From positions 1 to 50,443 of the forward strand of contig JACRNE010000007.1 of assembly GCA_016219345.1 (NCBI GenBank): a stretch of 50,443 nt of DNA, read 5' to 3'. A program made the translations under genes and the position numbers. The notes below the pieces were generated by a model. It saw nothing but the letters and a program-made list of their open reading frames with translations, ran no database searches and had not been told where the DNA came from. Of the stretch, positions 630 to 43,215 are shown one piece after another (within the stretch, counting starts at the first letter, position 1; each line of letters starts with the position of its first letter). Source of the stretch: Candidatus Saccharimonadota bacterium (GTDB taxonomy: Bacteria > Patescibacteriota > Saccharimonadia > Saccharimonadales > 2-12-FULL-41-12).

Positions 630-1202
630 GTGAAGAATCAAAGTATTGTTGACTGGTTAGATGATTTGGGTTCAAAAGAGCCAACTCCTGGTGGTGGTGC
701 TGTAGCGGGCTTAAACGGTGCTATAGCTGCCGCGCAGCTGAAAATGATCTGTGAATACACAAAAGATGAAGAGATCCAGAGCAAAACTAATGAACTTGGG
801 TTAAAAGTACTAGAATTTTTAGACCTTGCTACCCGGGACTCTGAAAGTTACCTAAAAGTTCGTGAGGCTTACAAAGAAAAGAACGATGAGCTGATTCAAA
901 TTGCACTAATTAATGCTGCTGAAGTAAGCATAGATACTGCAGCGAGATGCGATGATTTGATGGTATTTATTGAGGAAAACTTGAGTAAATTTAACAAAAA
1001 TTTCTTCGCTGATCTAATAGTTGTTATCGCTAATTTAAAAGCAGCTACTAGATCCGCCAAAGCTATGGAAGACGTAAACGCTAAATCAATCACAAATGAA
1101 GCAGCAAAAGGTAGAGTAGAGAATAATTCAGAATATTGCAGCCAAATGCTAAAAAGAGCTGACAAGCTGTTTGAGTCAATAGAAGAGGTCTCAAATGACT
1201 AA
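630..1202 (+). CDS. Formiminotransferase-cyclodeaminase-like / methenyl-THF cyclohydrolase (FchA-like)
   Basis: LGSKEPTPGGGAVAGLNGAIAAA and overall length match the cyclodeaminase domain; overlaps folD. Confidence 0.8.
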   Translation: MKNQSIVDWLDDLGSKEPTPGGGAVAGLNGAIAAAQLKMICEYTKDEEIQSKTNELGLKVLEFLDLATRDSESYLKVREAYKEKNDELIQIALINAAEVSIDTAARCDDLMVFIEENLSKFNKNFFADLIVVIANLKAATRSAKAMEDVNAKSITNEAAKGRVENNSEYCSQMLKRADKLFESIEEVSND

Positions 1203-2037
1203 AATTTTAGACGGGAAGATTGTAGCTGAAAAAATTAACGCAGATTCAGCGATTTTAGTAAAAAAACTAACTGAAAAATCTGTAACACCGAAGCTAGTTA
1301 TAGTTATCGGAACAAATAATAAATCGCTACTTTCCTACGTAAAAGGGCTGTCTAAACAGGCTGAGAAAATCGGTATATTAGCTGAGATTATAGAAGTATC
1401 CGAAACCTCGACCAACAAATACGAAGAAATACTAAATAAATTATCGTCTGACCCGAGCGTCCATGGAATTATTCTACAAACACCACTACCAGACAGTGTG
1501 GATGCGGCTGCCTTAAGCGCGCTAGTGCCGGTAGACAAAGATGTCGATGGAATCAACCCCGCAAGCGCCGGCAGGTTACTCGCTAACGAAAAATCTTTCG
1601 CGCCGGCAACGGCTGAAGCGGTAATTACAATGCTGGACTACTACAATATTGGTTTGAGCGGTAAAAACGTAGCTGTTCTGGGAAGAAGCATGATTGTCGG
1701 TAAGCCTGTTGCCAGCTTATTAATTAACAGAGATGCCACGGCTACTATATGCCATTCTAAAACTCAAAATTTGAGCGAAATCACAAAAAAAGCAGACATA
1801 TTGGTAGTAGCCATAGGCAGAGCGAATTTGGTTAACGCAGATTACGTTTCGCGCGGTCAGGTGATAGTAGACGTGGGCATAAACTTTAACGAAGACGGTA
1901 AGATTGTAGGAGATGTTGATTTCAACAACGTTGAGGCTATGACATCAGCTATATCTCCGGTGCCCGGTGGCGTCGGGCCTGTTACAGCGGCTTTGCTTTT
2001 GAAGCATACTTGTGAGGCAGCCTTAAGTACTTTATAA
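1195..2037 (+). CDS. folD: Bifunctional methylene-THF dehydrogenase/cyclohydrolase
   Basis: VHGIILQTPLP, DKDVDGINP, GRSMIVGKPVA, DVGIN, PVPGGVGPVT motifs. Confidence 0.97.
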   Translation: MTKILDGKIVAEKINADSAILVKKLTEKSVTPKLVIVIGTNNKSLLSYVKGLSKQAEKIGILAEIIEVSETSTNKYEEILNKLSSDPSVHGIILQTPLPDSVDAAALSALVPVDKDVDGINPASAGRLLANEKSFAPATAEAVITMLDYYNIGLSGKNVAVLGRSMIVGKPVASLLINRDATATICHSKTQNLSEITKKADILVVAIGRANLVNADYVSRGQVIVDVGINFNEDGKIVGDVDFNNVEAMTSAISPVPGGVGPVTAALLLKHTCEAALSTL

Positions 2038-2046
2038 TCCAAAGCA

Positions 2047-3528
2047 ATGAGTGGTCCTCAAGATATTTTAATTGGAGACGATAAGCTAACTGAGAAATGC
2101 GCAGTTTTCGGCACCTTCGGGGCCAGTAAAGAAGCAGCGCGTTTGGCTTACTACGGACTCTGGGCGCTTCAGCATAGGGGACAAGAAAGCTCTGGGATTG
2201 CCAGTGCAGATACAAAAAATATTTATGATCATAGTGACTTTGGACTAGTTGCCAACGTCTACAAGGACGAAGACTTATCAGCTCTTCATGGACATATATC
2301 AATAGGGCATAACCGCTATTCGACCTCTGGCGGACGAGATGCTTGCTATAACCAGCCATTTTTAAACAAAGATCGCACATTTGCCTTCGCCCACAACGGC
2401 AACCTACCGGAAACAGTCAAACTAGAAAAGTTCTTAAAAAAGCACAAAGTCGCAACTGAAACACTGAATGATTCCGGCATGATGGCAGCAGCGATTGACG
2501 TACACATGCAGGACGGCTCAACACTTGAAGATGCAGTCATAAAATCTTACCCCCTCTTCCAGGGGGTTTTTTCTGCCCTCGCTATGGGCAAAGACAGGCT
2601 AGTTGCCTTTAGGGATGAGTACGGTATTCGTCCGCTTTCTATCGCTGAACTAGACGGTGGCTATGTAGTTTCATCTGAAACATGTGCTTATGACACAATT
2701 GGCGCTAAATTCATCCGCGAGATCGAACCAGGTGAATTGGTTGTCATAGATGAGAGAGGTATTCAGTCGTATCAGGTAGTGAAGGGCAATCAGAAGCTTG
2801 ATGTGTTTGAGTTTGTATATTTTGCAAGACCGGACAGCACCTTGATGGGTAGAAGTGTTAATAAAGTTCGTGAAAACTTCGGTATTGAGCTAGCAAAAGA
2901 ATATCCAGTTAACGCAGACATCGTTGTTCCTGTGCCTGACTCTTCCGTGCCGGCGGCCCTCGGCTACTCCAGGGAAAGTGGCCTCCGCTTTGAAATGGCG
3001 TTGGTTAAGAATAGATACATAAATAGAACTTTTATTAGACCGACAGAGGAGCTCCGCACCCGTGACCTAACCATGAAATTAAATCCAGTTATCCAAGCAT
3101 TAAAAGGCAAAAGGATTGTTTTAGTTGATGATTCGATTGTGCGCGGCACAACCATGAGAAAAGTCGTTAAGATGCTTCGCGGAGTTGGCGTGAAGGAAAT
3201 TCATCTTATGATTAGCTCGCCACCTGTGAAGTACCCTGATTTTTATGGAATTAATACTCCAAACCAAAATGATTTGATCGCGGCTAAAATGTCGGTGGAA
3301 GAAATACGTGAGCATCTGGGCGCAGACTCGCTTGGATTTTTATCATTTGACGGAATGATTGCGGCTACTGGTCTACCTGCCAGTAAGTTCTCTAGCTCTT
3401 GCTTTAACGGAGTATATCCAGCTCCGATTGGACAGAGGTCAGATGATATCAGTTATGTAGATTCCCGGCCTATGATTACTCCGAACCCAGCAAAAAAAGT
3501 AAAAACAAAATCTAAGGTGCTTGTATAA
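2047..3528 (+). CDS. purF: Amidophosphoribosyltransferase
   Basis: CAVFGTFG N-terminal Ntn Cys, GHNRYSTSG, VLVDDSIVRGTTMRK PRPP loop. Confidence 0.97.
   Translation: MSGPQDILIGDDKLTEKCAVFGTFGASKEAARLAYYGLWALQHRGQESSGIASADTKNIYDHSDFGLVANVYKDEDLSALHGHISIGHNRYSTSGGRDACYNQPFLNKDRTFAFAHNGNLPETVKLEKFLKKHKVATETLNDSGMMAAAIDVHMQDGSTLEDAVIKSYPLFQGVFSALAMGKDRLVAFRDEYGIRPLSIAELDGGYVVSSETCAYDTIGAKFIREIEPGELVVIDERGIQSYQVVKGNQKLDVFEFVYFARPDSTLMGRSVNKVRENFGIELAKEYPVNADIVVPVPDSSVPAALGYSRESGLRFEMALVKNRYINRTFIRPTEELRTRDLTMKLNPVIQALKGKRIVLVDDSIVRGTTMRKVVKMLRGVGVKEIHLMISSPPVKYPDFYGINTPNQNDLIAAKMSVEEIREHLGADSLGFLSFDGMIAATGLPASKFSSSCFNGVYPAPIGQRSDDISYVDSRPMITPNPAKKVKTKSKVLV
2549..2572 (+). terminator. Intrinsic-terminator-like hairpin inside the purF CDS
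   Basis: ACCCCCT-cttcc-AGGGGGT perfect 7-bp stem followed by a T tract. Confidence 0.6.
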
Positions 3529-3532
3529 ATAA

Positions 3533-4228
3533 ATGCACTCACCTAAGGTAGCGATATTAGCCTCCGGTAGCGGAACGACTGCAGAGTCGTTTATTTCTTC
3601 GTGTGTTAATGGTGAAATCACTGCTGATGTGGCTTTGGTTATATCGAACCACAAAGACCCCGGCGTATTTGAAAAGGTCAGAAGGCTCAATGATCAACAT
3701 GGGCTAAACATTGAATGCATACATATAGGCAAAGCCAACTTCCCTGAGAAAGAAGGAGAGAAAGTTAAATATGGCTTTCAAACCGAAGCTGAGGAAGAAA
3801 AAATCCTGCAGGTTCTAAAAGAAAATGACATAGAACTTGTCCTGCTGCTTGGTTATATGAAAAGAGTTGGGCCTAAAATAGTTGACGAGTTCGGCTGGTT
3901 GCCAAATTACGAATCTGTATATAAATCAAGAATGATTAATACTCACCCCGGGCTGCTGCCAGAGACAAAAGGTCTGTACGGCCTTAATGTCCAAAAGCAT
4001 GTTATCTCGAAGGGACTTGCTGTGGCCGGACACTGCCTATTCGCGGTGGATGACGAGTATGACGACGGGCCAGTTATATCAGAACATTCGTTTGAAACAG
4101 ATCCAACAGAGGATGCTGAAGAGCTTTTTGAGCGAGTCAAAGAGTCAGAAAAAAAGTACTTGGCCGAAGACATACAAAATTTTATAGACAAACAGCGGGA
4201 ATATAATAAAATTGGGAATAATGTCTAA
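3533..4228 (+). CDS. purN: Phosphoribosylglycinamide formyltransferase
   Basis: VAILASGSGTTAESFI, VLLLGYMKRVGP, INTHPGLLPETKGLYG, AGHCLFAVDDEYDDGP. Confidence 0.92.
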   Translation: MHSPKVAILASGSGTTAESFISSCVNGEITADVALVISNHKDPGVFEKVRRLNDQHGLNIECIHIGKANFPEKEGEKVKYGFQTEAEEEKILQVLKENDIELVLLLGYMKRVGPKIVDEFGWLPNYESVYKSRMINTHPGLLPETKGLYGLNVQKHVISKGLAVAGHCLFAVDDEYDDGPVISEHSFETDPTEDAEELFERVKESEKKYLAEDIQNFIDKQREYNKIGNNV

Positions 4229-5489
4229 AAGCGTATTGGTCGTTGGTAGTGGTGGGCGTGAACATGCATTGGCTTGGAAATTATCTCAATCTAATGATGT
4301 TTCAAAAGTTTATGTAGCTCCAGGCAATGGCGGAACGACACTAGTGGCTGAGAATGTCGATATCTCATTTACAGATGTAGAGGGGCTTTTAAACTTTGCT
4401 AGAGAAGAACAGATTGATCTAACCGTTATAGGACAGGAGGCAGCTTCTGAAGCCGGCTTGGTAGACGCTTTTAACGATGCCGGCTTATCTATTTTTGGCC
4501 CGACTAAAGCCGCTACGCTAATAGAATCTTCTAAAGTATTTTCTAAGGATTTAATGAGCGAGCAGAATATTCCAACCGCTCAATACAAAACATTTTCAGA
4601 TGCCACCAAGGCTTTTGAGTACATAAAAACCCGAAGTCTGCCTATTGTCATAAAAGCCGATGGCCTAGCCACCGGAAAAGGTGTGATCATCCCTGAAACC
4701 TTGGAGCAAGCCGAAAAAGCCATTCAGGACATTATGATAGATAAAATTTTTGGCGAGGCAGGCGGATCCGTTGTAGTTGAGGACTTCCTAAAAGGTCAGG
4801 AAGTTTCTATGCATGCGCTTACGGATGGCACAAATTCTGTTATTTTTCCGCCTTCTCAAGATCATAAACAGGTATTTGATGGTGATAAAGGTCCAAACAC
4901 TGGCGGGATGGGCGTAATCGCTCCTCTGGACTGGGTTAAGCCCGAGCAAATATCTAAAATCCAAGAAAAAGTTGTATCACCCGCTTTAGAAGGACTCAAG
5001 AAAAAAAATTCACCATTTATAGGCTGTTTGTACCCGGGCTTAATGCTAGACGGCCAAGACGTGAATGTGATCGAATTTAACGCTAGATTCGGCGACCCTG
5101 AAGCAGAAGTTTATATGAGGTTACTAGACTGTGATCTTTATAAAATTTTGAGCGATTGCGCGGCAGGCAATCTAAATCCGGAGTCCGTAAAATGGCGTGA
5201 TGGCTACGCAGCGACCGTTGTGCTGGCTTCACCTGGCTATCCTGGAGATTATCCTAAAGGACTACCTATAACTGGGCTTGAAGAGGCCGAAAAATTGGAC
5301 GATATTGTTGTATTCCACGCTGGGACGGCGCTAAAAGACGGAAATTTCGTTACAGCAGGCGGGCGAGTCCTAAATGTAACCGCCACCGGAGATACGCTGC
5401 AAAACGCACTAGATAAAGCTTACGAAGCCGTTAAATTGATCAACTTTGAGGGCATGCACTACCGAACCGACATCGGCCAACGCGTTTAG
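4212..5489 (+). CDS. purD: Phosphoribosylamine-glycine ligase
   Basis: VLVVGSGGREHALAWKL, KADGLATGKGV, NTGGMGVIAP, NARFGDPEAEV. Confidence 0.97.
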   Translation: MGIMSKSVLVVGSGGREHALAWKLSQSNDVSKVYVAPGNGGTTLVAENVDISFTDVEGLLNFAREEQIDLTVIGQEAASEAGLVDAFNDAGLSIFGPTKAATLIESSKVFSKDLMSEQNIPTAQYKTFSDATKAFEYIKTRSLPIVIKADGLATGKGVIIPETLEQAEKAIQDIMIDKIFGEAGGSVVVEDFLKGQEVSMHALTDGTNSVIFPPSQDHKQVFDGDKGPNTGGMGVIAPLDWVKPEQISKIQEKVVSPALEGLKKKNSPFIGCLYPGLMLDGQDVNVIEFNARFGDPEAEVYMRLLDCDLYKILSDCAAGNLNPESVKWRDGYAATVVLASPGYPGDYPKGLPITGLEEAEKLDDIVVFHAGTALKDGNFVTAGGRVLNVTATGDTLQNALDKAYEAVKLINFEGMHYRTDIGQRV

Positions 5490-5570
5490 TTTATAAATTA
5501 CTAATAATCACTTGTTTATTATTTGTGATTTCTTTGGAAAGGGAGGATCACGGAGCCAAAGGCGTAGTCT

Positions 5571-5609
5571 AAGGAGGGAAAAACCTTATGAAATGGGTTT
5601 GCCCTCCTT
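5571..5609. terminator. Inverted repeat between convergent purD and prs
   Basis: AAGGAGGG...CCCTCCTT with additional inner pairing AACC/GGTT; no clear T tract. Confidence 0.4.
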
Positions 5610-5614
5610 AAGTA

Positions 5615-6643
5615 TTAAGACTGGTTTAGGCCATCGAAGATGGCAGAAACCGAAGTTTCCTCAAAGATTGCCTGAACTGCGTTTGCCAATAAATCAACTA
5701 CAGAAACAACTTCTATATATGGAACTTTTCTACTGCTTTGAGGAAGAGGTAGGGTGTCTGTAACGGCTAAATGGTCAATTGGTGATTTGTCGATTCTATC
5801 GATTGCCGGGTCAGAAAAAATACCGTGTGTAGTAGCGGCAGAAACAGCTTTTGCGCCATTTTGCATCAAAAGCTCAGCCGCAGCACACATAGTTCCTGCG
5901 GTGTCGATCATATCATCGATAATCACACATCTTTTACCTTTAAAATTACCGATTATATCAATTGCTTCAGCTTCGTTTTTCCTAGAACGACGTTTGTGAA
6001 CAATTGCTATGTCGGCGTTCAACCTACTGGCGTAGCGTTCTGTTAGCTTAACTCGTCCAGCATCTGGAGAAACTATAACTAGATCCTCCCCAGCAAATTT
6101 CTTTTTAAGATGTTCTACAATGGCAGGCAAGGCAATCAAATGGTCAAATGGCCCGTCAAAAAATCCTTGGATCTGACCGGCGTGAAGATCCACACAAGCA
6201 ATCCTGTCAGCACCAGCCACTGACAGAAGATCGATGACTAGCTTAGCGCTTATAGGTTCGCGACCTGATGATTTACGGTCTTGTCGAGCGTAACCTAAAA
6301 ACGGGCAAACGGCCGTAATGTGACGTGCCGATGCCCGCTTAGCAGCATCTATAATGATGGCTTGTTCCATAATGGCTTCAGCGACGGTGTCGTGATGAGC
6401 CTGAAAGACAAATACGTCTGCTCCACGAACTGACTCTTCTAAATGGCATTTGATTTCGCCATTAGCAAATTTTTCTATACCGGTGTTTGACAGCTCTACT
6501 CCAAGTTTTTTTGCGACATTTTTTGCCAAGTCCTCATGGTGTGACCCAGAAAAAATTAGTAAACGTTTTTCAATAATTGCCTTCAATGTGTCTGCCCCTT
6601 TGAGTCTTTTTTTATAGCATATCATAAAAAAGAATGTCTTCAT
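5615..6643 (-). CDS. prs: Ribose-phosphate pyrophosphokinase; the true start may be downstream of the ORF start
   Basis: IFSGSHHEDLA, FANGEIKCHLEESVRGADVFV, DLHAGQIQGFFDGPFDHL, CVIIDDMIDTAGTM. Confidence 0.95.
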   Translation of the reverse strand: MKTFFFMICYKKRLKGADTLKAIIEKRLLIFSGSHHEDLAKNVAKKLGVELSNTGIEKFANGEIKCHLEESVRGADVFVFQAHHDTVAEAIMEQAIIIDAAKRASARHITAVCPFLGYARQDRKSSGREPISAKLVIDLLSVAGADRIACVDLHAGQIQGFFDGPFDHLIALPAIVEHLKKKFAGEDLVIVSPDAGRVKLTERYASRLNADIAIVHKRRSRKNEAEAIDIIGNFKGKRCVIIDDMIDTAGTMCAAAELLMQNGAKAVSAATTHGIFSDPAIDRIDKSPIDHLAVTDTLPLPQSSRKVPYIEVVSVVDLLANAVQAIFEETSVSAIFDGLNQS

Positions 6644-6659
6644 GTTAAAATATAGCTAA

Positions 6660-7778
6660 ATGACAGGTTCCGATGAAACAGGACTTACTTATTCTAATTC
6701 CGGGGTAGATTACGGATCTATTGATCCTGCAAAAGTGTCTGCGCAAGACGCAGCTAAAAGCACCTCAAAAAATTTAAATAATTTTGGATTTAGCGAGCTA
6801 GCAGAAAGCCGCGGTGAGTCTGCTTATGTCTGGGATGAAGGTGATAGTTATAAAGCCTTAGTAGTGGAAGGATTAGGTACAAAAAACCTTGTGGCCGATG
6901 CTATGAGAAAAATAACTGGTAAAACTTACTACGACCAGGTAGCTCAAGATACCGTGGCAATGATAGTAAATGACCTAATAGTTGTCGGCGCCTTGCCAAA
7001 TGTGGTGAACGCATACTTTGCTATCGGTGATACCAAATGGATGGAAGACAAAGAAAGATCTTCTGATTTGATTAAAGGCTGGGCTGCAGCATGTCAGTTA
7101 GCTGGCGCAACATGGGGCGGCGGGGAAACTCCGGCGCTTAAAGGAATTATTAACCCAGAGACGATTGATCTAGCTGGTTCAGCGGTTGGCAATATTGCAG
7201 ATAAATCAAACTTGGTCCTCGGTGATAAATTGGCCAGCGGCGATAGAATAGTTCTTGTTGAAAGTAGTGGGATACACGCCAACGGACTGACAATGGCTCG
7301 TAAAATTGCTGATGATCTAAGCGATGGATACGCAACAAAAATATCTGATGGCCGCAGCTACGGCGAGGCTTTATTATCTCCAACACATATATACGTTGAG
7401 CTAGTTAGAAAACTTCAAGATGCAAATATAGAGATCCACTATATGGTTAATGTCACTGGCCACGGCTGGCGCAAATTAATGAGAGCTAACAGAGACGACC
7501 TAGCTTACGTGATAGAGGAAGTCCCTGAATATCCAGCTGAGTTTGATTTTATTAAAGATCAAGCTAAAGCCAACGACGAGGAAATGTATGGCAATTTTAA
7601 TATGGGTGTGGGCTTTGCGGTCTATGTGCCTGAAAAATACGCCGATAAAGTAGTCGAGATTGCGCATTCAGCAAACCTAAAAGCTTGGAACGCTGGAAAA
7701 GTCGTTAAAGGACAAAAATCCGTCACTATAAAACCAATCGACATTGAGTATAAATCTGACACTCTGGGAGTACGTTAG
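6660..7778 (+). CDS. purM: Phosphoribosylformylglycinamidine cyclo-ligase (AIR synthetase)
   Basis: YSNSGVDYGSIDPAK, VAMIVNDLIVVGALP, ESSGIHANGLT, NVTGHGWRKLMR. Confidence 0.9.
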   Translation: MTGSDETGLTYSNSGVDYGSIDPAKVSAQDAAKSTSKNLNNFGFSELAESRGESAYVWDEGDSYKALVVEGLGTKNLVADAMRKITGKTYYDQVAQDTVAMIVNDLIVVGALPNVVNAYFAIGDTKWMEDKERSSDLIKGWAAACQLAGATWGGGETPALKGIINPETIDLAGSAVGNIADKSNLVLGDKLASGDRIVLVESSGIHANGLTMARKIADDLSDGYATKISDGRSYGEALLSPTHIYVELVRKLQDANIEIHYMVNVTGHGWRKLMRANRDDLAYVIEEVPEYPAEFDFIKDQAKANDEEMYGNFNMGVGFAVYVPEKYADKVVEIAHSANLKAWNAGKVVKGQKSVTIKPIDIEYKSDTLGVR

Positions 7779-10700
7779 TGCTGATATTTGGCGAAGTAAA
7801 TGCGCTAGCAAGCTTTAAAAAAGATAGACTGCTAGAAGAGCTTCGTGGCCTAGACGAGAACATTATAGGTGTTTCAGCGGAGTTTATACATTTTATTGAA
7901 AATACGAAACCACTTGATAAAAGTTCTGAAACTAAACTAAAAAAGCTTCTTACCTACGACGAATCATACGAAGAAGATAAAAAAGGCGAGTTCTTTTTAG
8001 TGACACCACGGCCAGGAACTATCTCCCCATGGTCCTCCAAGGCTACTGACATAGCTAGAAGTTCTAATTTAAAAGAAGTTAAGCGCATAGAGCGAGGCAC
8101 AGCGTATTACATTGAGTCAAAGAAGAGTCTAGATAGAGTTAAAATTTCAAAGCTGCTAGCCGACAGAATGACTCAGGTCGTTTTAGACGATATTAAAAAA
8201 GCTGAAGTCTTGTTTAAGTCTGAAAAGCCGAGGACATATGAGCAAATCGATCTAGGTAAAAACGGCTTTGAGCAGTTAGGTAAGATGAACAAGAAGCTAG
8301 GTCTAGCACTATCAGATGACGAGATTGAATACCTAGTAGACGCTTACAAAAAAGCCGGACGTAACCCAACAGACGTAGAGCTAATGATGTTTTCTGTTGT
8401 GAACAGTGAGCATTGCCGTCACAAAATCTTTAATGCTGATTGGTTGATAGATGGAAAACCAGCCGATAAAAGCTTGTTTAAAATGATAAAAAATACCTAT
8501 CAGAAATCCCCTGAGGATGTTTTATCTGCTTACTCTGACAACGCGGCGGTTTTAAAGGGGCCAAAAGTTAAGCAATTTTTCGCAGACCAGAAAACGAAAA
8601 CTTATTCATACAACGACGAAGCCGCAAACATAGTTATAAAAGTAGAGACACATAACCACCCGACGGCAATTGCCCCTTATCCTGGAGCCTCAACTGGCGT
8701 GGGTGGTGAGATCCGCGACGAAGCAGCCACTGGACGTGGTGCTAAATCAAAAATGGGGCTAACTGGCTTTAATGTCTCAAACTTGAACATACCTGGATAC
8801 AACCAGCCATGGGAGAAGTTTTACGGTAAGCCTGACCGGATAGTTTCAGCTCTGGACATAATGATTGAGTCTCCACTGGGCGGCGCAGGCTTTGCCAATG
8901 AATTTGGCAGACCTAATCTAGCTGGTTACTTCAGAACATACGAACAAGAACACGAAGGCGACATCCGAGGTTATCACAAACCTATCATGATCGCCGGAGG
9001 AATGGGCAATGTCTTGGATGATAACGTATCAAAAGGCTCTATAAAGGCGGGCGACAAACTAATAGTTCTAGGTGGTCCAGCAATGTTGATCGGTCTTGGC
9101 GGAGGTTCAGCCTCTAGCATAGAAGCCGGCAAGAGTGATGAAGATCTAGATTTCGCCTCTGTTCAAAGAGACAACGCTGAAATGCAGAGACGAGCTCAAG
9201 AAGTTATAAACAGTTGCTGGAATCAGAAAAAAGATAATCCAATCATCTCGATCCACGATGTTGGTGCAGGAGGGCTTTCTAATGCATTCCCAGAGCTTGT
9301 GCATGACCAAGACTTAGGCGGTGAGTTTGAGCTTAGAGATATACCAAATGCAGAGCCAGGCCTATCGCCATTAGAAATTTGGTGTAATGAAGCGCAGGAA
9401 AGATACGTACTGGCTATCAGCGAAAAAAATTTAGAGAAGTTTAAAAAAATCTGCGAACGAGAAAAGTGCCCATTTGCGGTAATCGGCACAGCAACCAAAG
9501 AAAAGAACTTAGTCCTAAACGATCGACTGTTTAAAAATAAGCCGATAGACATACCTATGAGCTTACTCTTTGGGAATCCGCCTAAGATGACTCGGAAATT
9601 TGAAACAAAAAATCCAAAGTACAAAACCCTGGAAACTAAGGATATAGCCATAAATGAAGCGGTTGAGCGAGTTCTTCGCCTGCCTGCAGTCGCCAGCAAA
9701 AAGTTCTTAATAACAATTGGCGACAGGACAGTTGGTGGCCTAGTGACACGCGATCAAATGGTAGGGCCGTGGCAAGTCCCTGTCAGCGACGTTAGCGTAA
9801 CAGCCGCGTCTTACAATGAGATGCACGGGGAAGCGGTAGCTATAGGCGAAAGATCTCCGATTGCTCTTATAAATTCCCCGGCGTCTGGTCGAATGGCAGT
9901 TGGTGAGGTTATTACAAATATTATCTCAGCTGATATAGAAAAAATTTCTGATATAAAACTATCTGCCAACTGGATGGCCGCAGCAGGTCATAAAAGTGAA
10001 GACAAAAACCTATATGAAACCGTGAAAGCTTTAGGCGAGGATTTTTGCCCTGATCTAGGTATTTGCATCCCAGTTGGGAAAGATTCTTTGAGCATGCGGA
10101 CTTCCTGGGACGAAAAAGGTAAAAACAAGTCCGTAACGGCACCTTTGTCGGTCGTTATTAGTGGGTTTGCCCCGGTAAGTGACACATCAAAAACCTTAAC
10201 GCCAGAGCTTAAGAATGTCTCAAGTGAGTTAATATTAATTGATCTAGGTGAGGGTAAATCACGCCTCGGTGCCTCCGCATTTGCGCAAACTTATTCTCAG
10301 GTCGGTAATGAAGTGCCTGATGCTAACGCTAAATTACTTAAAAAATTCTTTAAAGTGCTAAGCGGTCTTAAAAAAGACGAAAAAATTCTGGCTTACCACG
10401 ACCGCTCAGATGGTGGATTAATTACCACTCTTTTGGAAATGTCTTTTGCTAGTCGCCTAGGACTTGATGTAGATATTTCGGAGATTACTTCTGAGCCTCT
10501 ACAGGCCCTCTTTAATGAAGAGCTGGGAGCGGTCATCCAAGTTAGCGATAAAGAATCGGACAAAATCTTGGAAGTACTTAGAAAAGAACTTGGCGATAAC
10601 GTTTACCGCATTGGAAAAATACGGAAAGATGAGCAGATAGTAATCAGCCGGGATGGCTCCGAAATATATAAAAATACTCGAGCGAAATTAGAATCATACT

Positions 10701-11617
10701 GGGCAGAAACAAGCTATCAAGTCCAAAAACTTCGAGACAACCCAAGGTTAGCTGAACAAGAATTTAAATCTATTTCTGACGATAAAAAAACTAAGATAGT
10801 GTCTAAAATAACTTTTGAAAACCTATCAAAGACTTATAAGACACGTCCCAAGGCAGCCATTCTAAGAGAGCAAGGAGTCAACGGTCAGCTTGAAATGGCA
10901 GCGGCTTTTGACATGGCTGGATTTGAAACAGTCGATGTTCACCTAAACGATCTTGTGACTAACAAATTATCGCTGAAGGATTTTTCTGTTTTGGCAGCGT
11001 GCGGCGGGTTCTCTTATGGTGACGTTCTGGGTGCAGGACAGGGGGTAAACAAGTCAATTTTATTTAATGATAAATTACTAAATCAATTTAAGGATTTCTT
11101 CGAGAGGAAAGACACCTTGACACTCGGCGTGTGTAATGGCTGCCAGATGCTCTCAGGACTAAAGGATCTCATCCCTGGAGCAGAATTCTGGCCTAAGTTT
11201 TCACATAATCTTTCCGGGAGATTTGAAGCTAGGTTAGTAAACTTAAAAATTAATAAAAGTCCTTCAATTTTATTTAAAGGAATGGACGGATCAATTCTAC
11301 CAATACCGGTCGCACACGGTGAAGGAAGGGTGATATTTGACTCTTCTGCTGATGAAAAATATGCACTTGAAAATAATCTTGTCTCCGCACAGTACGTCGA
11401 CGGCGCTGGCAACGCAGCAAATAATTACCCAGCAAATCCTAACGGCTCAAAAAATGGCATGACATCTATGACAAGTCTGGATGGAAGAGCCACTATTTTA
11501 ATGCCTCATCCTGAAAGAGTATTCTTAACAAAACAGCTATCATGGCGTCCTGAAAATTGGGATAAAAATAGCCCATGGCTAAGAATATTTCAGAATGCAC
11601 GAGATTTTATAGGTTAG
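7778..11617 (+). CDS. purL: Phosphoribosylformylglycinamidine synthase, fused PurL-PurQ
   Basis: 1279 aa; [34 protein letters not shown]; C-terminal glutaminase with [13 protein letters not shown] and MPHPERVF. Confidence 0.96.
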   Translation: [1279 protein letters not shown]

Positions 11618-18766: not shown

Positions 18767-20299
<1,533 letters not shown>

Positions 20300-36038: not shown

Positions 36039-36046
36039 AATCAAAT
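36039..36046. repeat. Left target site duplication AATCAAAT
   Basis: Exact 8-bp match to 39924-39931, each abutting a terminal inverted repeat. Confidence 0.9.
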
Positions 36047-36112
36047 GGCGACTATCCCCTCAAAGCAAGTAACTTCTTAAAGTCTTAATGGTTATTGTGG
36101 TATAATAGTAAT

Positions 36113-36259
36113 CGCACCAGCTTGAGGTGCATAGTGAATCAAGCAGACTAAATCGGGTGGGAAAACACAGGTGTTTTATCTCAGATTAATCTGCGGATTC
36201 AAATTTTAAGCGGCTTTACAGCCCTATGAGACAAAACACAGTCTTGTAGGGCTTTTTTT
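36113..36259 (+). ncRNA. Candidate structured RNA with its own promoter and terminator
   Basis: TGgTATAAT at 36098-36106; GCACC/GGTGC hairpin; long stem GAATC-aa-GCAGA / TCTGC-g-GATTC with inner AAAACA-cagg-TGTTTT; terminator GCCCTATGAGAC/GTCTTGTAGGGC plus T7. Confidence 0.6.
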
Positions 36260-36306
36260 ATGGGTTGTTTACGACTTATAAATTAAATGTTCTATTAAAA
36301 ACATAA

Positions 36307-36383
36307 GCCAATGTAGCTCAGAGGATAGAGCGCTACTCTAGCGGAGATAGAGGTCGTCGGTTCGAGTCCGACCATTGGCACCA
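36307..36383 (+). tRNA. tRNA-Arg-like gene with aberrant anticodon arm (possible pseudo-tRNA)
   Basis: Perfect acceptor GCCAATG/CATTGGC, D arm GCTC/GAGC, T arm GTCGG-TTCGAGT-CCGAC, encoded CCA; anticodon region CTACTCTAGCGGAGATAG folds only with a bulge or mismatch. Confidence 0.65.
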
Positions 36384-36419
36384 GCATACGTCTGGTAGCC
36401 ACAATTTGGAGAAATGTAA

Positions 36420-36442
36420 AAGCCCTCTTGGGTGAGGGCTTT
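36420..36442 (+). terminator. Hairpin downstream of the tRNA-like gene
   Basis: AAAGCCCTC-ttgggt-GAGGGCTTT. Confidence 0.6.
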
Positions 36443-36567
36443 GCTACTCTAGCGTGTTTTTATCTTAGCACGTGATAGTTAAACTCGTCTACAAGTTTGT
36501 AAGACGTTTATTAAAGATACCCTAAAACATGAGACAAAAGTACAATATTAACTTCTTACAATATTCC

Positions 36568-36596
36568 TTGACAAGCAAGTACTGCTGGAGTATAAT
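36568..36596 (+). promoter_or_regulatory. Consensus sigma70-type promoter of the transposase
   Basis: TTGACA (36568-36573), 17 bp, TATAAT (36591-36596); ATG follows 7 bp later. Confidence 0.85.
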
Positions 36597-36603
36597 TAAG
36601 GAC

Positions 36604-37449
36604 ATGAGATACACATTTAAGGACTTCAAAGAGGAATACCCAGACGATACAGCTTGTCTCAATGCTGTACTAGAAAATCGTTATGGCAATACCTGTCCTC
36701 GTTGTGGGGTAATAGGCGTTAAGTTTCACCCCATCACAGGGCGACAAGGCTTTGTATGTTCTGAGTGTGATAAACATATCTATCCTCTAGCCGGTACTAT
36801 CTTTAGGAAGTCCACTACTAGTCTATGGAGCTGGTTTTACGCTATATACCTATTCTCCGTATCTAAGAATGGTGTATCGGCTAAGGAGCTAGAACGACAT
36901 TTAGGCGTTACTTATAAAACAGCATGGAGAATGGCCAAACAAATCAGGCTTTTAATGGAACAGGACGGGGAGATACTAACTGGTGATGTTGAAGTTGATG
37001 AGACTTACGCACCCTCACGTAAGCACCCACGGGCTTTAGGGCACAGTAAAAAGCAGGTTATCTTTGGTGCTGTTGAGCGTAACGGACGAGTAAATGCAAG
37101 TCATGTTAAAAGTGCAGGTGTTCGGGTACTTATGCCGATAATTGAAAACAACATACAAGCCGAAGCCACTATCTATAGTGATGAAGCCAGAGTTTATAAG
37201 ACCTTGAATAAGCGTGGTTACTCCCACACTACAGTTAATCACTCAAAGCTAGAGTATGTACGAGGAAACGCCCACACAAACACCATAGAGGGGTTCTGGT
37301 CTCAACTAAAGAGAAGTATAGATGGCACTTATCATGCTGTATCACCTAAGTATCTACAGAGTTACATTAACCAATTTGTATTTCAGTATAACTTTAGAGA
37401 TCTGCCTACTTGTCCTGTTCTTTTGGAACGGGCTGCGAAGCTTTCTTAA
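36604..37449 (+). CDS. IS1595/ISXO2-family DDE transposase with N-terminal zinc ribbon
   Basis: CPRCGVIGVKFHPITGRQGFVCSEC, GDVEVDETYAPSRKHPRALG, IYSDEARVYKTL, EYVRGNAHTNTIEGFWSQLKRSIDGTYHAVSPKYLQSYINQFVFQYNFR. Confidence 0.95.
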   Translation: MRYTFKDFKEEYPDDTACLNAVLENRYGNTCPRCGVIGVKFHPITGRQGFVCSECDKHIYPLAGTIFRKSTTSLWSWFYAIYLFSVSKNGVSAKELERHLGVTYKTAWRMAKQIRLLMEQDGEILTGDVEVDETYAPSRKHPRALGHSKKQVIFGAVERNGRVNASHVKSAGVRVLMPIIENNIQAEATIYSDEARVYKTLNKRGYSHTTVNHSKLEYVRGNAHTNTIEGFWSQLKRSIDGTYHAVSPKYLQSYINQFVFQYNFRDLPTCPVLLERAAKLS

Positions 37450-37492
37450 TTAGTCTTTTAAATAGTTTTTTACTCATACTCTTATTATAACT

Positions 37493-37999
37493 CTAATAAG
37501 TGGTCTTCGTCTTGCTGTACACCCTGCCATCAATATAGGTGATCATCAGACTGCCCTTATCCGTTAGTGGACTTCCGTAATCACAGAGTTCCATAGTGCC
37601 AACTCCCGGTGTCTCGCTTGTTGTGCAGCTGTCTGATGTCTTGTTGATGAGTTTCTCTACTTGGGCTTTTGTCTGACCATTCTGTATCTGCTGGTAGTAA
37701 GTATTTGGATCCCATGATGAAACAACAGGAGTATCTACTACAGATGAAACAACAGGTGGGCTGTAGGTTGTCAGGGTGGTGCTTCTTCCCCAGGTTAAAT
37801 ACCAGAATATGGTCTGCAAAATCATAAATAGAATACTAATAGCAATTAAGTGCTCACCTAATTTCTTGTCCAGTCGCTTATCTTTAGCTATGTAGACTAT
37901 TCCAACTATCAATCCTATTATCGGAATAAAGAAAGCTACTATCGTTAGAGCTAGGTAACTCTCGTGCTTGCTAGCCTTTACCTCTGTTTTGTCGGACAT
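37493..37999 (-). CDS. Membrane protein of unknown function (transposon cargo)
   Basis: Two TM segments followed by an extracytoplasmic domain with paired Cys (SDSCTTS, MELCDYG). Confidence 0.65.
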   Translation of the reverse strand: MSDKTEVKASKHESYLALTIVAFFIPIIGLIVGIVYIAKDKRLDKKLGEHLIAISILFMILQTIFWYLTWGRSTTLTTYSPPVVSSVVDTPVVSSWDPNTYYQQIQNGQTKAQVEKLINKTSDSCTTSETPGVGTMELCDYGSPLTDKGSLMITYIDGRVYSKTKTTY

Positions 38000-38031
38000 A
38001 TCATATTCTCCTTTTATTTATTAAGGCGCCC

Positions 38032-38060
38032 AAATAAAAAGGACACCCGTACTAGGTGTC
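38032..38060 (-). terminator. Rho-independent terminator in the leader of the 37493-37999 gene
   Basis: Minus strand GACACC-tagtacg-GGTGTC then C and TTTTTATTT. Confidence 0.7.
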
Positions 38061-38130
38061 TTAAGCCAACAGCAGGTTAAACCTAACTGAATTCGCACGG
38101 AGTGTCCATTCTATGGTTTAACCAATTCAA
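38061..38130 (-). promoter_or_regulatory. Attenuator-like leader upstream of the 37493-37999 gene
   Basis: GGTTAAACC/GGTTTAACC 9-bp stem whose loop contains GGACAC, complementary to GTGTCC of the terminator arm. Confidence 0.45.
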
Positions 38131-38180
38131 ATAAAAAACCGCCGCTGACTTAAGACAGTTTTATGATACGTCGAGCGGGT
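38130..38180 (-). terminator. Terminator of the caspase-like operon
   Basis: Minus strand ACCCGCTCGAC...GTCAGCGGCGGT followed by TTTTTATTT. Confidence 0.65.
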
Positions 38181-38204
38181 AACTAATTCAAGTCCGAGGA
38201 CTTC

Positions 38205-38861
38205 TTATATGGATGCATCTTGTTTGCCTAGGCAGACTTGGTGCTTCATATTAGTAAATACACAAGCAAGCATATCGCTTGCTCCTTCTGGGGCATCACT
38301 GCTCATTAATTCTTTCATCATTTTTTTTGAATACTCTATCGATCGTTTTGTTGCTTCGGCAGCGCTTTTACCTTTAAGGAGCGATACTACCACTTGATTT
38401 GATGGCATCATGACATAATTTGCTATCTTGTCTTCAAGAGGGTGATGTGTTTTCTCAATGTCGTAGCATAGCCAGAATTTTTCAGAATATCCTATATAGG
38501 CCAACACTCCTGCATCGACACAGTCCTGGCCAAGTTGCGCACCAGTACTACACGAACGAGCATACATAATAGTGCCTTTCAAGAAGTGCAAATTTGATGC
38601 ATCTACAAGAGGCTCGTTGTCGTATCCGTAAATAGTAGTTTCAGAACCATGGCCATTAATAACACATAGTTCTGGTTTCATTTTCTTCAAACGTCCATTA
38701 AGTTCTTTCGGAATTGCTTTTTTCGACTCGAGGTCTAAAATGCCATGGCCTCTGTCTGTTGCTTCCTTTAAAAGTTTTGTGGTCCAATAAAAAAGATAGT
38801 TTGTGACTAAGTCATAATCAGGTCTCGTAAATAAAATTGTCTTATTGGAGGAGTGAGCCAT
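38205..38861 (-). CDS. Caspase/CHAT-like cysteine peptidase (candidate)
   Basis: LCVINGHGSET (His-Gly) and IMYARSCSTGAQLG (Cys) motifs at caspase-like spacing; 218 aa. Confidence 0.7.
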   Translation of the reverse strand: MAHSSNKTILFTRPDYDLVTNYLFYWTTKLLKEATDRGHGILDLESKKAIPKELNGRLKKMKPELCVINGHGSETTIYGYDNEPLVDASNLHFLKGTIMYARSCSTGAQLGQDCVDAGVLAYIGYSEKFWLCYDIEKTHHPLEDKIANYVMMPSNQVVVSLLKGKSAAEATKRSIEYSKKMMKELMSSDAPEGASDMLACVFTNMKHQVCLGKQDASI

Positions 38862-39066
38862 TTTTTATTGAACGAAGAAATTCCAATTGCATTTCAACGT
38901 ATTCCTTACCTAAGTCGTCGTCTTCTTCTATGAGTCTTTTAAGTTCAGTGACGGTAAAGCTTCCTTCATTTCCAATAGCAATCCCCATATTTGCAGGCAT
39001 TGTACTTAATCTAGCTAGAATAAGGTTCTTTTCATCCGACGTAACAGACGAGTTTGTATCAATCAT
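38842..39066 (-). CDS. Small protein partner of the caspase-like gene
   Basis: 74-aa ORF overlapping the protease start by 20 bp. Confidence 0.75.
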   Translation of the reverse strand: MIDTNSSVTSDEKNLILARLSTMPANMGIAIGNEGSFTVTELKRLIEEDDDLGKEYVEMQLEFLRSIKNGSLLQ

Positions 39067-39254
39067 TAAATTATCTCCAACTCGGCTAACTTGCCAAGGA
39101 TTTCCTTACCTTTATCTGTATTATTATATACCTCAATATAAGCAGCATGCCAAGTGATAGGACCATCTGGATCAATAACTACAACAATATCGTTACGCAA
39201 GCCCAGAGGTAGACCAGCATAAATCTTATTAAACCTAACTTTTAATTCTTCCAT
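39066..39254 (-). CDS. Small protein, first gene of the caspase-like operon
   Basis: 62-aa ORF whose stop overlaps the next start; minus-strand TATAAA upstream. Confidence 0.75.
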   Translation of the reverse strand: MEELKVRFNKIYAGLPLGLRNDIVVVIDPDGPITWHAAYIEVYNNTDKGKEILGKLAELEII

Positions 39255-39270
39255 GATTTTTGTGTTTTAT

Positions 39271-39303
39271 AATGTTCATAACATTACGCATTCCTGTCGG
39301 AAT
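39271..39303 (-). promoter_or_regulatory. Promoter/operator-like region of the caspase-like operon
   Basis: AATGTT-cat-AACATT (39271-39285) and ATTCC-tgtc-GGAAT (39290-39303) dyads next to the minus-strand -10. Confidence 0.4.
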
Positions 39304-39362
39304 TGTAGCATGTTTTTACAATATTCAAAGCATTGCTATAATCTGCTTCTTTTTCAATAAAA

Positions 39363-39707
39363 CTACAGCTTCTCCCAGTCCAAAAACTCCAAAGCATCGT
39401 CCATCCTTCTGAAGTTTTGGCTTATGGCTCTACTAGTCTTATTCTCAGCCTCAATCCAATATCTATCGTCTCCAGCCTCCATTCCATGATCATAAACTTT
39501 AATCATTACTTTTTCTTTAGTTTCAGGATTTGTTCCCTCGAAAATAGATACCCTACAAACATCTTTAAGGCCGGAATATCGTTTTATGCATGCAATAGCT
39601 TTTGTATCATCTTCTGTCATTCTATCCTTAGAATTGCATATATATCTATACTTGTGAAGAACGGGGGTATAATTATAAGCGGAAGGAGTAAAATAATGTA
39701 TTTTCAA
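39363..39707 (-). CDS. Hypothetical protein (start may be internal, at MTEDD)
   Basis: 114-aa ORF, coding-like C-terminal part. Confidence 0.5.
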   Translation of the reverse strand: MKIHYFTPSAYNYTPVLHKYRYICNSKDRMTEDDTKAIACIKRYSGLKDVCRVSIFEGTNPETKEKVMIKVYDHGMEAGDDRYWIEAENKTSRAISQNFRRMDDALEFLDWEKL

Positions 39708-39884
39708 ATTTTCAAAAATCCATCATTACAACAGCCCTATTGGTGGGTTATCAAGAGTTCGGGAAACCATGAAATAATGTGTCATTCTGAGATGCTGAGT
39801 AGTAAACAAGCCTGCATAAATGCTATAGCCAAAATATGTCGAGAAGCAGGGTCTGCGCTTTACTACGATAGAACTGGTGAGTAA
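39696..39884 (+). CDS. DUF1508/YegP-like small protein
   Basis: GGAAGGA RBS; MYFQIFKNPSLQQPYWWVIKSSGNHEIMCHSEMLSSKQACINAIAKICREAGSALYYDRTGE. Confidence 0.75.
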   Translation: MYFQIFKNPSLQQPYWWVIKSSGNHEIMCHSEMLSSKQACINAIAKICREAGSALYYDRTGE

Positions 39885-39923
39885 GAGCATTATCTGCCTA
39901 CTTGCTCTGAGGGGATAGTCGCC

Positions 39924-39931
39924 AATCAAAT
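39924..39931. repeat. Right target site duplication AATCAAAT
   Basis: Exact match to 36039-36046. Confidence 0.9.
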
Positions 39932-41621: not shown

Positions 41622-43215
41622 ATGAGGAGAACAAGATACGGAATTTTTAAACTTAGAAATACAAAAAATCGATTGTTTTACTTTGGCGGAGTAATCATAG
41701 CTGCACTTGTTTGTGCTTTTGTCTTGTGGCAAGTAGTCATTACCAGGCCAGTCAAGGTTGACTGGCTCAATCAATCAGATTGGATGCATTTTACTGGAGC
41801 AGAAAAGGTTGAGAATGGAGTTAAAATCAGCCCAACGGGAAGAGTTATAAATCACCGTGATACGTCTACAGCCCAACCCAATCCACCAGTCAACATACGA
41901 GGATCTCATCTAAAAGTGTCTGGTGACTTCCAGATTGATATGGAGTTATCGGGGGCAAATAACGAAGCAACTGTGCAATTTTATGGAAAAGTACCAGTAA
42001 TATATGACGAATGGCGACAGGAGCGCCCCAGCATAAGGCTCATCGTAAAAAACGATGGTTTATATGCGGCGATATGGGATGGTACTTCAGCAACTTCTAT
42101 GGATGAGAGATTCTACGCAATAGATATAAAAAATGAAGCCAGCATTACCCTTGCGCGCAGTAAAGGTAACTTTATCATGAAAGCCGGAGGACGAAACTTA
42201 GGCATTATGCCAGATCACAATATATTCGCTGATAACACTGTGTGGTTTGGGGCGGATGCTAAAAGTGGTACAGAAGGATGGACGCTAACTTCTCTAACAG
42301 CAAAAAGTTCTAAAAAAACGCCTTTGGAGCTTGTAAGCGCTCCTAGTCTCATTGGCAACCGGGATGATCCAAATACTCTTCATAATCTTTCAGTGAAAAA
42401 TTCCAGAAAATTACCTATTGGCGCAGCGGTGTCAATCGGACCCTTGCTTACAGATAACCAGTACAGAAATACCGCACTCAGTCAGTTCAGTATGATAACG
42501 CCTGAGAATAGTTTTAAGCCACAGGTTATACACCCTCGGGAAGATCTTTACCTCTTTAAGGACTCGGATACTTTAGTGGAGGCTGCTGAAAAAAATCAAA
42601 TGATTGTTCATGGCCACTCGCTTGTTATGGGTAAAGCCAATCCCGAATGGATGCAAAAAAGTCCAGAAGAGAAACGCAAACAAATAATGATTGATCATGT
42701 TAGTGCGATCGTAGGTCATTACAAAGGCAGAGTAGCTCAATGGGACGTTGTGAATGAACCATTGTCGGAAGATGATGTGGATTATGAGGGTGGTCTTAAG
42801 GGAATGCGAAAACAAATGTGGTTTGATGCTATGGGCGAGGAATATATTGATATTGCTTTCAGTGGGGTTTGAATCTCATGTTTACCACACTCCTGCAGAT
42901 ACCATTAATGCAGCCCAGCTAAAGCAACACATTCAAATCCTAGCTTCACTGGGAATTGTCTCTAGGATTTCAGAGATAGATGTTCTTGGCGACGATCCAG
43001 CTCTACAAGCAAAACAATACGCTGAAGTTATGCAAGTTTGTCTTAGTGAGCCATCATGCAAATCGTATGGAATATGGGGAATTACAGATCTTTATGGATC
43101 CACAACGCTTTCAGATAGATATCCAGTAATTCTTGGTGATAGCTTGTTATGGGACAGTAACTACAAGCCTAAGCCAGCACTGAAGAGCTTGCAGTCTTTA
43201 CTGGCTCGACCTTAA
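41622..43215 (+). pseudogene. Membrane-anchored GH10-like xylanase, apparently broken by internal deletion and frameshift
   Basis: IVHGHSLVMGKANPEWM, VAQWDVVNEPLSED then frame change to VGFESHVYHTPADT...SEIDVLGDD...SYGIWGITD. Confidence 0.8.

Follow-up and report, generated by a model that had tools for sequence, protein, structure and literature searches.

A contig of a Candidatus Saccharimonadota bacterium (JACRNE010000007.1), whose 50,443 nucleotides make up the window analyzed here, carries three overlapping open reading frames (ORFs) that encode a caspase-like protein of 218 amino acids (aa) by predicted fold (ORF3) and two small partners of 62 and 74 aa (ORF1 and ORF2). The trio is a conserved module of Patescibacteria and DPANN archaea, and we propose, with about even confidence, that it is a stand-alone, horizontally mobile, three-subunit conditional protease module used in biological conflict. 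A first-pass annotation of the window had placed the three frames on the minus strand at 38205-39254, and both coordinates and strand were borne out. ORF1 and ORF2 overlap by 1 nt and ORF2 and ORF3 by 20 nt, and ATGA-type overlaps are frequent at the ORF1-ORF2 junctions of trio loci. Chance reading frames are ruled out, because dozens of genomes have the trio with its gene order unchanged, at ~30-60% protein identity.

Structure prediction assigns ORF3, with very high confidence, to the fold of the clan CD cysteine peptidases (caspases, gingipains and CHAT proteases). The AlphaFold2 (AF2) model, with a mean predicted local distance difference test score (pLDDT) of 97 and a predicted template modeling score (pTM) of 0.92, has the alpha/beta/alpha caspase-type fold of this clan, and its top Foldseek matches in the PDB include SAVED-CHAT (E 6e-7), gingipain R (8e-6) and both caspase-11 and Craspase TPR-CHAT (3e-4). 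The first-pass annotation had read two motifs, INGHGSET and ARSCSTG, as a caspase-like or CHAT arrangement; both are present, and the predicted fold agrees with that reading. They contain His71 and Cys104, which follow strands E65-69 and E98-102, respectively, as is usual for the His and Cys of clan CD. Two conservation checks had been set beforehand. One concerned these residues: of 68 distinct ORF3 sequences that could be aligned, 67 retain both, and Asp144 is also invariant. The other concerned linkage of the small genes to ORF3, which proved essentially constant. No signal peptide or membrane segment is evident in ORF1-3, and ORF3 is predicted to be cytosolic. As a separate observation, a Saccharibacteria ORF3 copy (L004 1480-2124) carries a TGA codon in frame close to its start and is either broken or mis-sequenced.

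Sequence searches placed none of the three window proteins in a Pfam, NCBIfam, PADLOC or PDB-sequence family. The Pfam models for Peptidase_C14 (metacaspase-orthocaspase) and CHAT matched neither the window ORF3 nor 37 of its relatives, and Peptidase_C25 (PF01364) matched one of these 37 (E 1.4e-4) and not the window protein.

To model the small partners, we used a relative that has both in frame, with the intervening stop read as a residue purely as a modeling device. Each half of the resulting chain is predicted to fold as helix-strand-strand-helix-helix (pLDDT 92). A fold search with this model returned no solved structure at E < 0.001, a result that the two-domain make-up may influence by masking a match. 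Shared predicted topology and weak cross-matches point to a common origin, so ORF1 and ORF2 are probably paralogs that arose by duplication; the sequence profiles barely show the relation (hhalign, 13% probability over 17 columns). HMMER matches of ORF2 to a designed barrel and to S100 were weak, short and unconvincing. Of the three genes, ORF1 shows the strongest conservation, with Arg20, Trp35 and Glu41 invariant in an alignment of 40 relatives. The very last residues of most ORF1 proteins are a hydrophobic pair (Ile-Ile, for example) that may have a structural role only or may serve as a recognized tail. The anatomy thus fits the suggestion of the first-pass annotation that an effector is encoded with a sensor or inhibitor, which we refine by regarding the small partners as probable sisters.

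A single peptide pattern derived from ORF1 was used to scan 84,980 species, one genome apiece. The scan yielded 38 loci, of which 36 contain all three genes in identical order and two end at contig edges. These loci belong to Patescibacteria, to DPANN archaea (Woesearchaeota, Nanoarchaeota, Micrarchaeota, Aenigmatarchaeota and Diapherotrites), to bins named only bacterium or archaeon and to one 'Thaumarchaeota' bin, which is doubtful and may be mis-binned, as its ORF3 groups among Micrarchaeota; the pattern was built from Patescibacteria sequences, and the restriction to Patescibacteria and DPANN is only as good as that pattern. Genome searches in Patescibacteria recovered full trios with order and spacing unchanged, with matches in 8 of 393 genomes of the class Saccharimonadia and in 13 of 380 genomes across the phylum (one marginal). 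A profile search of one DPANN phylum found matches in 25 of 236 genomes, with up to three copies per genome, and ORF1 and ORF2 lay upstream in all 19 DPANN loci inspected. Independent ORF3 and ORF1 searches of the same 380 Patescibacteria genomes had 11 genomes in common, and their discrepancies comprised one contig end, one marginal match and one genome with ORF1 alone (G505). An all-against-all comparison of neighboring genes showed no conserved fourth gene, only the trio itself being recurrent. Plasmid searches gave no matches, phage searches gave one distant match, and scans for ORF3 on viral contigs found none.

Pairwise distances computed for ORF1, ORF2 and ORF3 are correlated (Mantel rho 0.43-0.54, 0/2000 permutations), as would be expected of one unit, and shared organismal ancestry would give the same correlation. 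Repeated interdomain transfer was considered and not retained: a quick tree required three label changes, yet the approximately unbiased (AU) test rejected neither a grouping with all Patescibacteria on one side (p 0.78) nor one with Saccharimonadia as a single clade (p 0.74). These comparisons support at least one interdomain exchange or a very old origin.

Carriage of the trio by a transposon, another claim of the first pass, is confirmed by the features that surround it (Table 1). An IS1595 DDE transposase of ISXO2 type, terminal inverted repeats (TIRs) and an 8-bp direct repeat, the target-site duplication (TSD) AATCAAAT, place the element in the IS1595 (ISXO2) family. The repeat sequence at the two ends is GGCGACTATCCCCTCA[A/G]AGCAAGTA; it is present once at each end and nowhere else in the assembly, so the element is single-copy. 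The same TIR is absent from the other trio loci inspected, and the IS1595 element is therefore one local vehicle. An empty insertion site, sought through the flanking genes in relatives, could not be shown. IS1595-family elements with passenger genes are known ('transporter IS'), and this element has in common with them an ISXO2-type transposase, TIRs, an 8-bp target duplication and cargo genes, but its trio cargo is new. The tRNA gene among the further cargo is unusual in its own right: ARAGORN reports an anticodon of four bases (agcg) in an 8-nt loop, a +1-frameshift-like design, and its score of 55 bits is above the Rfam tRNA cut-off and among the lower scores of the assembly's 30 tRNAs.

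Table 1. Positions of the trio and of the transposon that carries it in the 50,443-nucleotide window.
Feature	Position	Strand	Basis or detail
ORF1, 62 aa, small partner	39066-39254	minus	Predicted alpha-beta-beta-alpha-alpha fold; alignment of 40 relatives; AF2 model of a relative's ORF1-ORF2 chain
ORF2, 74 aa, second small partner	38842-39066	minus	Predicted topology as ORF1; alignment of 38 relatives; AF2 model
ORF3, 218 aa, caspase-like cysteine protease by predicted fold	38205-38861	minus	AF2, Foldseek, conservation; His71 in NGHG, Cys104 in RSC
IS1595-family (ISXO2-type) transposon, 3,877 bp	36047-39923	no strand	25-bp TIRs with one mismatch; 8-bp TSD AATCAAAT; transposase PF12762 and PF12760
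Left TIR GGCGACTATCCCCTCAAAGCAAGTA	36047-36071	plus	25 bp
Right TIR	39899-39923	minus	25 bp
TSD AATCAAAT, left copy	36039-36046
TSD AATCAAAT, right copy	39924-39931
Transposase, 306 aa	36529-37449	plus	Zinc ribbon and DDE IS1595 domain; Pfam E 6e-39 (PF12762), 4e-7
Further cargo: membrane-type protein, 168 aa	37493-37999
Further cargo: 114-aa protein	39363-39707
Further cargo: short DUF1508 gene	39696-39884
Further cargo: odd tRNA gene with CCA	36307-36383

Several loci elsewhere place the trio or its parts beside genes of defense or in viruses. On a Nanoarchaeota contig (L060 488-4573), the trio lies between cas1 and cas4/cas3. In a genome of the same family as the window (G005, L009 8657-9178), a C5 cytosine methylase gene is immediately followed by an in-frame fusion of the ORF3 C-terminal half to a Vsr mismatch endonuclease. 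An IMG/VR viral contig (L015 5001-5180) has a relative of ORF1 without ORF2 or ORF3, which could be a decoy or counter-defense protein. In a Methanofastidiosa virus, one 66-aa protein of weak likeness to both ORF1 and ORF2 is encoded ahead of a distant ORF3 that has a membrane segment at its C terminus; this arrangement is perhaps a simpler version of the module. Protease genes of another type also occur nearby: the lone ORF1 of G505 (L082 750-2735) adjoins an SDH-type serine protease gene (PF01972), and a related gene adjoins a broken trio in a second genome (G413, L036 7257-8294).

Among the best structural matches of ORF3 are SAVED-CHAT (a CBASS-type effector; PDB 8tl0) and Craspase TPR-CHAT (type III-E CRISPR; PDB 7y84), which share its caspase-like alpha/beta fold and His/Cys dyad. 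Unlike these proteins, ORF3 has no SAVED or TPR domain and no cyclase or CRISPR effector partner; its 218 aa make up a protease domain alone, accompanied by the two small genes, and no PDB chain matches it at the sequence level. Gingipain R (peptidase family C25) also resembles ORF3 in structure, but gingipains are secreted and have propeptides, whereas ORF3 is short and without an evident secretion signal, and 36 of its 37 relatives are unmatched by the C25 model. The Microcystis orthocaspase MaOC1 adjoins a type II toxin-antitoxin (TA) pair, a ParE toxin with a ParD-like antitoxin (PMC7935541). That locus and the trio are alike in setting a caspase homolog beside two small genes in a repeat-flanked segment (PMC7935541), but the trio partners, which match no TA family, are probable sisters that share one predicted fold. 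No description was encountered in searches of the literature on caspases of Patescibacteria or DPANN. The protease is clan CD by predicted fold, and its family, the predicted partner fold and the three-gene layout are new to the libraries searched.

We propose that ORF3 acts as a cytosolic clan CD cysteine protease through His71 and Cys104 and that ORF1 and ORF2, paralogous and translationally coupled with ORF3, would bind as a pair to the protease or to its substrate and keep the protease inactive. On a trigger, they would release or direct the protease, and ORF3 would then cleave at least one protein of the cell. The module would most probably serve to sense a virus or other invading element and to shut down or kill the cell; such anti-virus or anti-element suicide is our leading guess. 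Conditional proteolysis fits because the anatomy is that of an enzyme with two small, translation-coupled sister subunits, and a conflict role is favored over a core function because of the patchy distribution, the mobility, the insertion in a cas locus, the Vsr and methylase chimera and the viral occurrences, although each of these points is circumstantial. The nearest solved relatives of ORF3 include CRISPR- and CBASS-linked CHAT proteases. We infer complex formation, regulation by ORF1 and ORF2, proteolysis, a trigger and the conflict role. The first-pass annotation had offered a defense, addiction or signaling module; the conserved module stands, and its role is stated here conditionally, as most neighbors are housekeeping genes.

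Several observations weigh against this proposal. Most flanking genes, as judged by eye, are housekeeping genes such as secA, lepA, ftsZ, uvrB and rplT, and presence in viruses can equally be explained as cargo or counter-defense. PADLOC-DB 2.0.0 hidden Markov models matched neither the three window proteins nor 37 ORF3 and 40 ORF1 relatives. The pTM of the ORF1-ORF2 chain is only 0.63, so the mutual arrangement of its halves is not established. In one ORF3 relative, Tyr replaces the catalytic His, and several copies are truncated or contain stops, so the protease is dispensable.

The housekeeping surroundings and predicted cytosolic location would also suit a regulatory protease of an endogenous pathway (stress, cell cycle or protein quality control) with ORF1 and ORF2 as substrate adaptors, and the SDH-type genes beside the lone ORF1 and the broken trio hint that ORF1 can serve other proteases. 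We consider this explanation unlikely, as the trio occurs in only 2-11% of a group's genomes, is absent from close relatives and is here borne by a transposon. Slightly less probable still is an addiction module, in which a protease toxin is checked by ORF1, ORF2 or both, and the trio persists because its loss kills the cell, which stabilizes the transposon or its chromosomal site. In favor of this reading, the enzyme gene is preceded by small partner genes coupled to it in translation, and the trio is mobile, patchy and sometimes multi-copy. However, the best conserved gene is small ORF1 and not the enzyme; ORF1 alone persists in one genome and one viral contig; enzyme halves decay while their neighbors persist, a decay that an addiction module should resist; and the partners are predicted to be folded alpha-beta domains rather than the usual disordered antitoxin tails. 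An episymbiosis factor, delivered to a larger host cell or acting at contact with it, would suit the matches in host-dependent ultra-small lineages of both domains (besides the bins named only bacterium or archaeon) and the near-absence of plasmid and phage matches, but it is improbable given the lack of an evident signal peptide or membrane segment, the minority of genomes with the trio and the Patescibacteria-derived pattern behind the apparent restriction.

Three features of the window stand apart from the trio. The ATP synthase beta subunit gene (18767-20148) is divided into two overlapping frames of 259 and 205 aa, which suggests an assembly indel in this metagenome-assembled genome or a broken copy. 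A glycoside hydrolase family 10 (GH10) xylanase (41622-43215) is likewise split over two frames, and a homolog in a genome of the same family lies in an unbroken frame of 557 aa. A cluster for purine synthesis that is nearly complete (1195-11617; folD, purF, purN, purD, prs, purM and purL, by eye) is present in this Patescibacteria genome of ~0.73 Mb; genomes of this kind often lack such pathways.

Known defense systems are scarce in Patescibacteria and DPANN. A 2026 survey found that restriction-modification and CRISPR-Cas are under-represented in DPANN and compact systems enriched, a pattern that mirrors small-genome, host-dependent bacteria such as Patescibacteria (PMC12988326). We tentatively suggest, with less confidence than in the mechanism proposed above, that the trio serves immunity or suicide and is typical of ultra-small prokaryotes, bacterial and archaeal, that depend on a host. 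A minimal caspase-like executioner would act there under a sister pair with a small fold not seen before, and the system would have passed between bacteria and archaea and have echoes in their viruses. The trio would also be a regulated caspase-like unit of unusually small size, whose two partners match no solved structure. A one-kilobase caspase-like module common to Patescibacteria and DPANN would be a concrete, testable candidate for immunity or cell-death control in these lineages.
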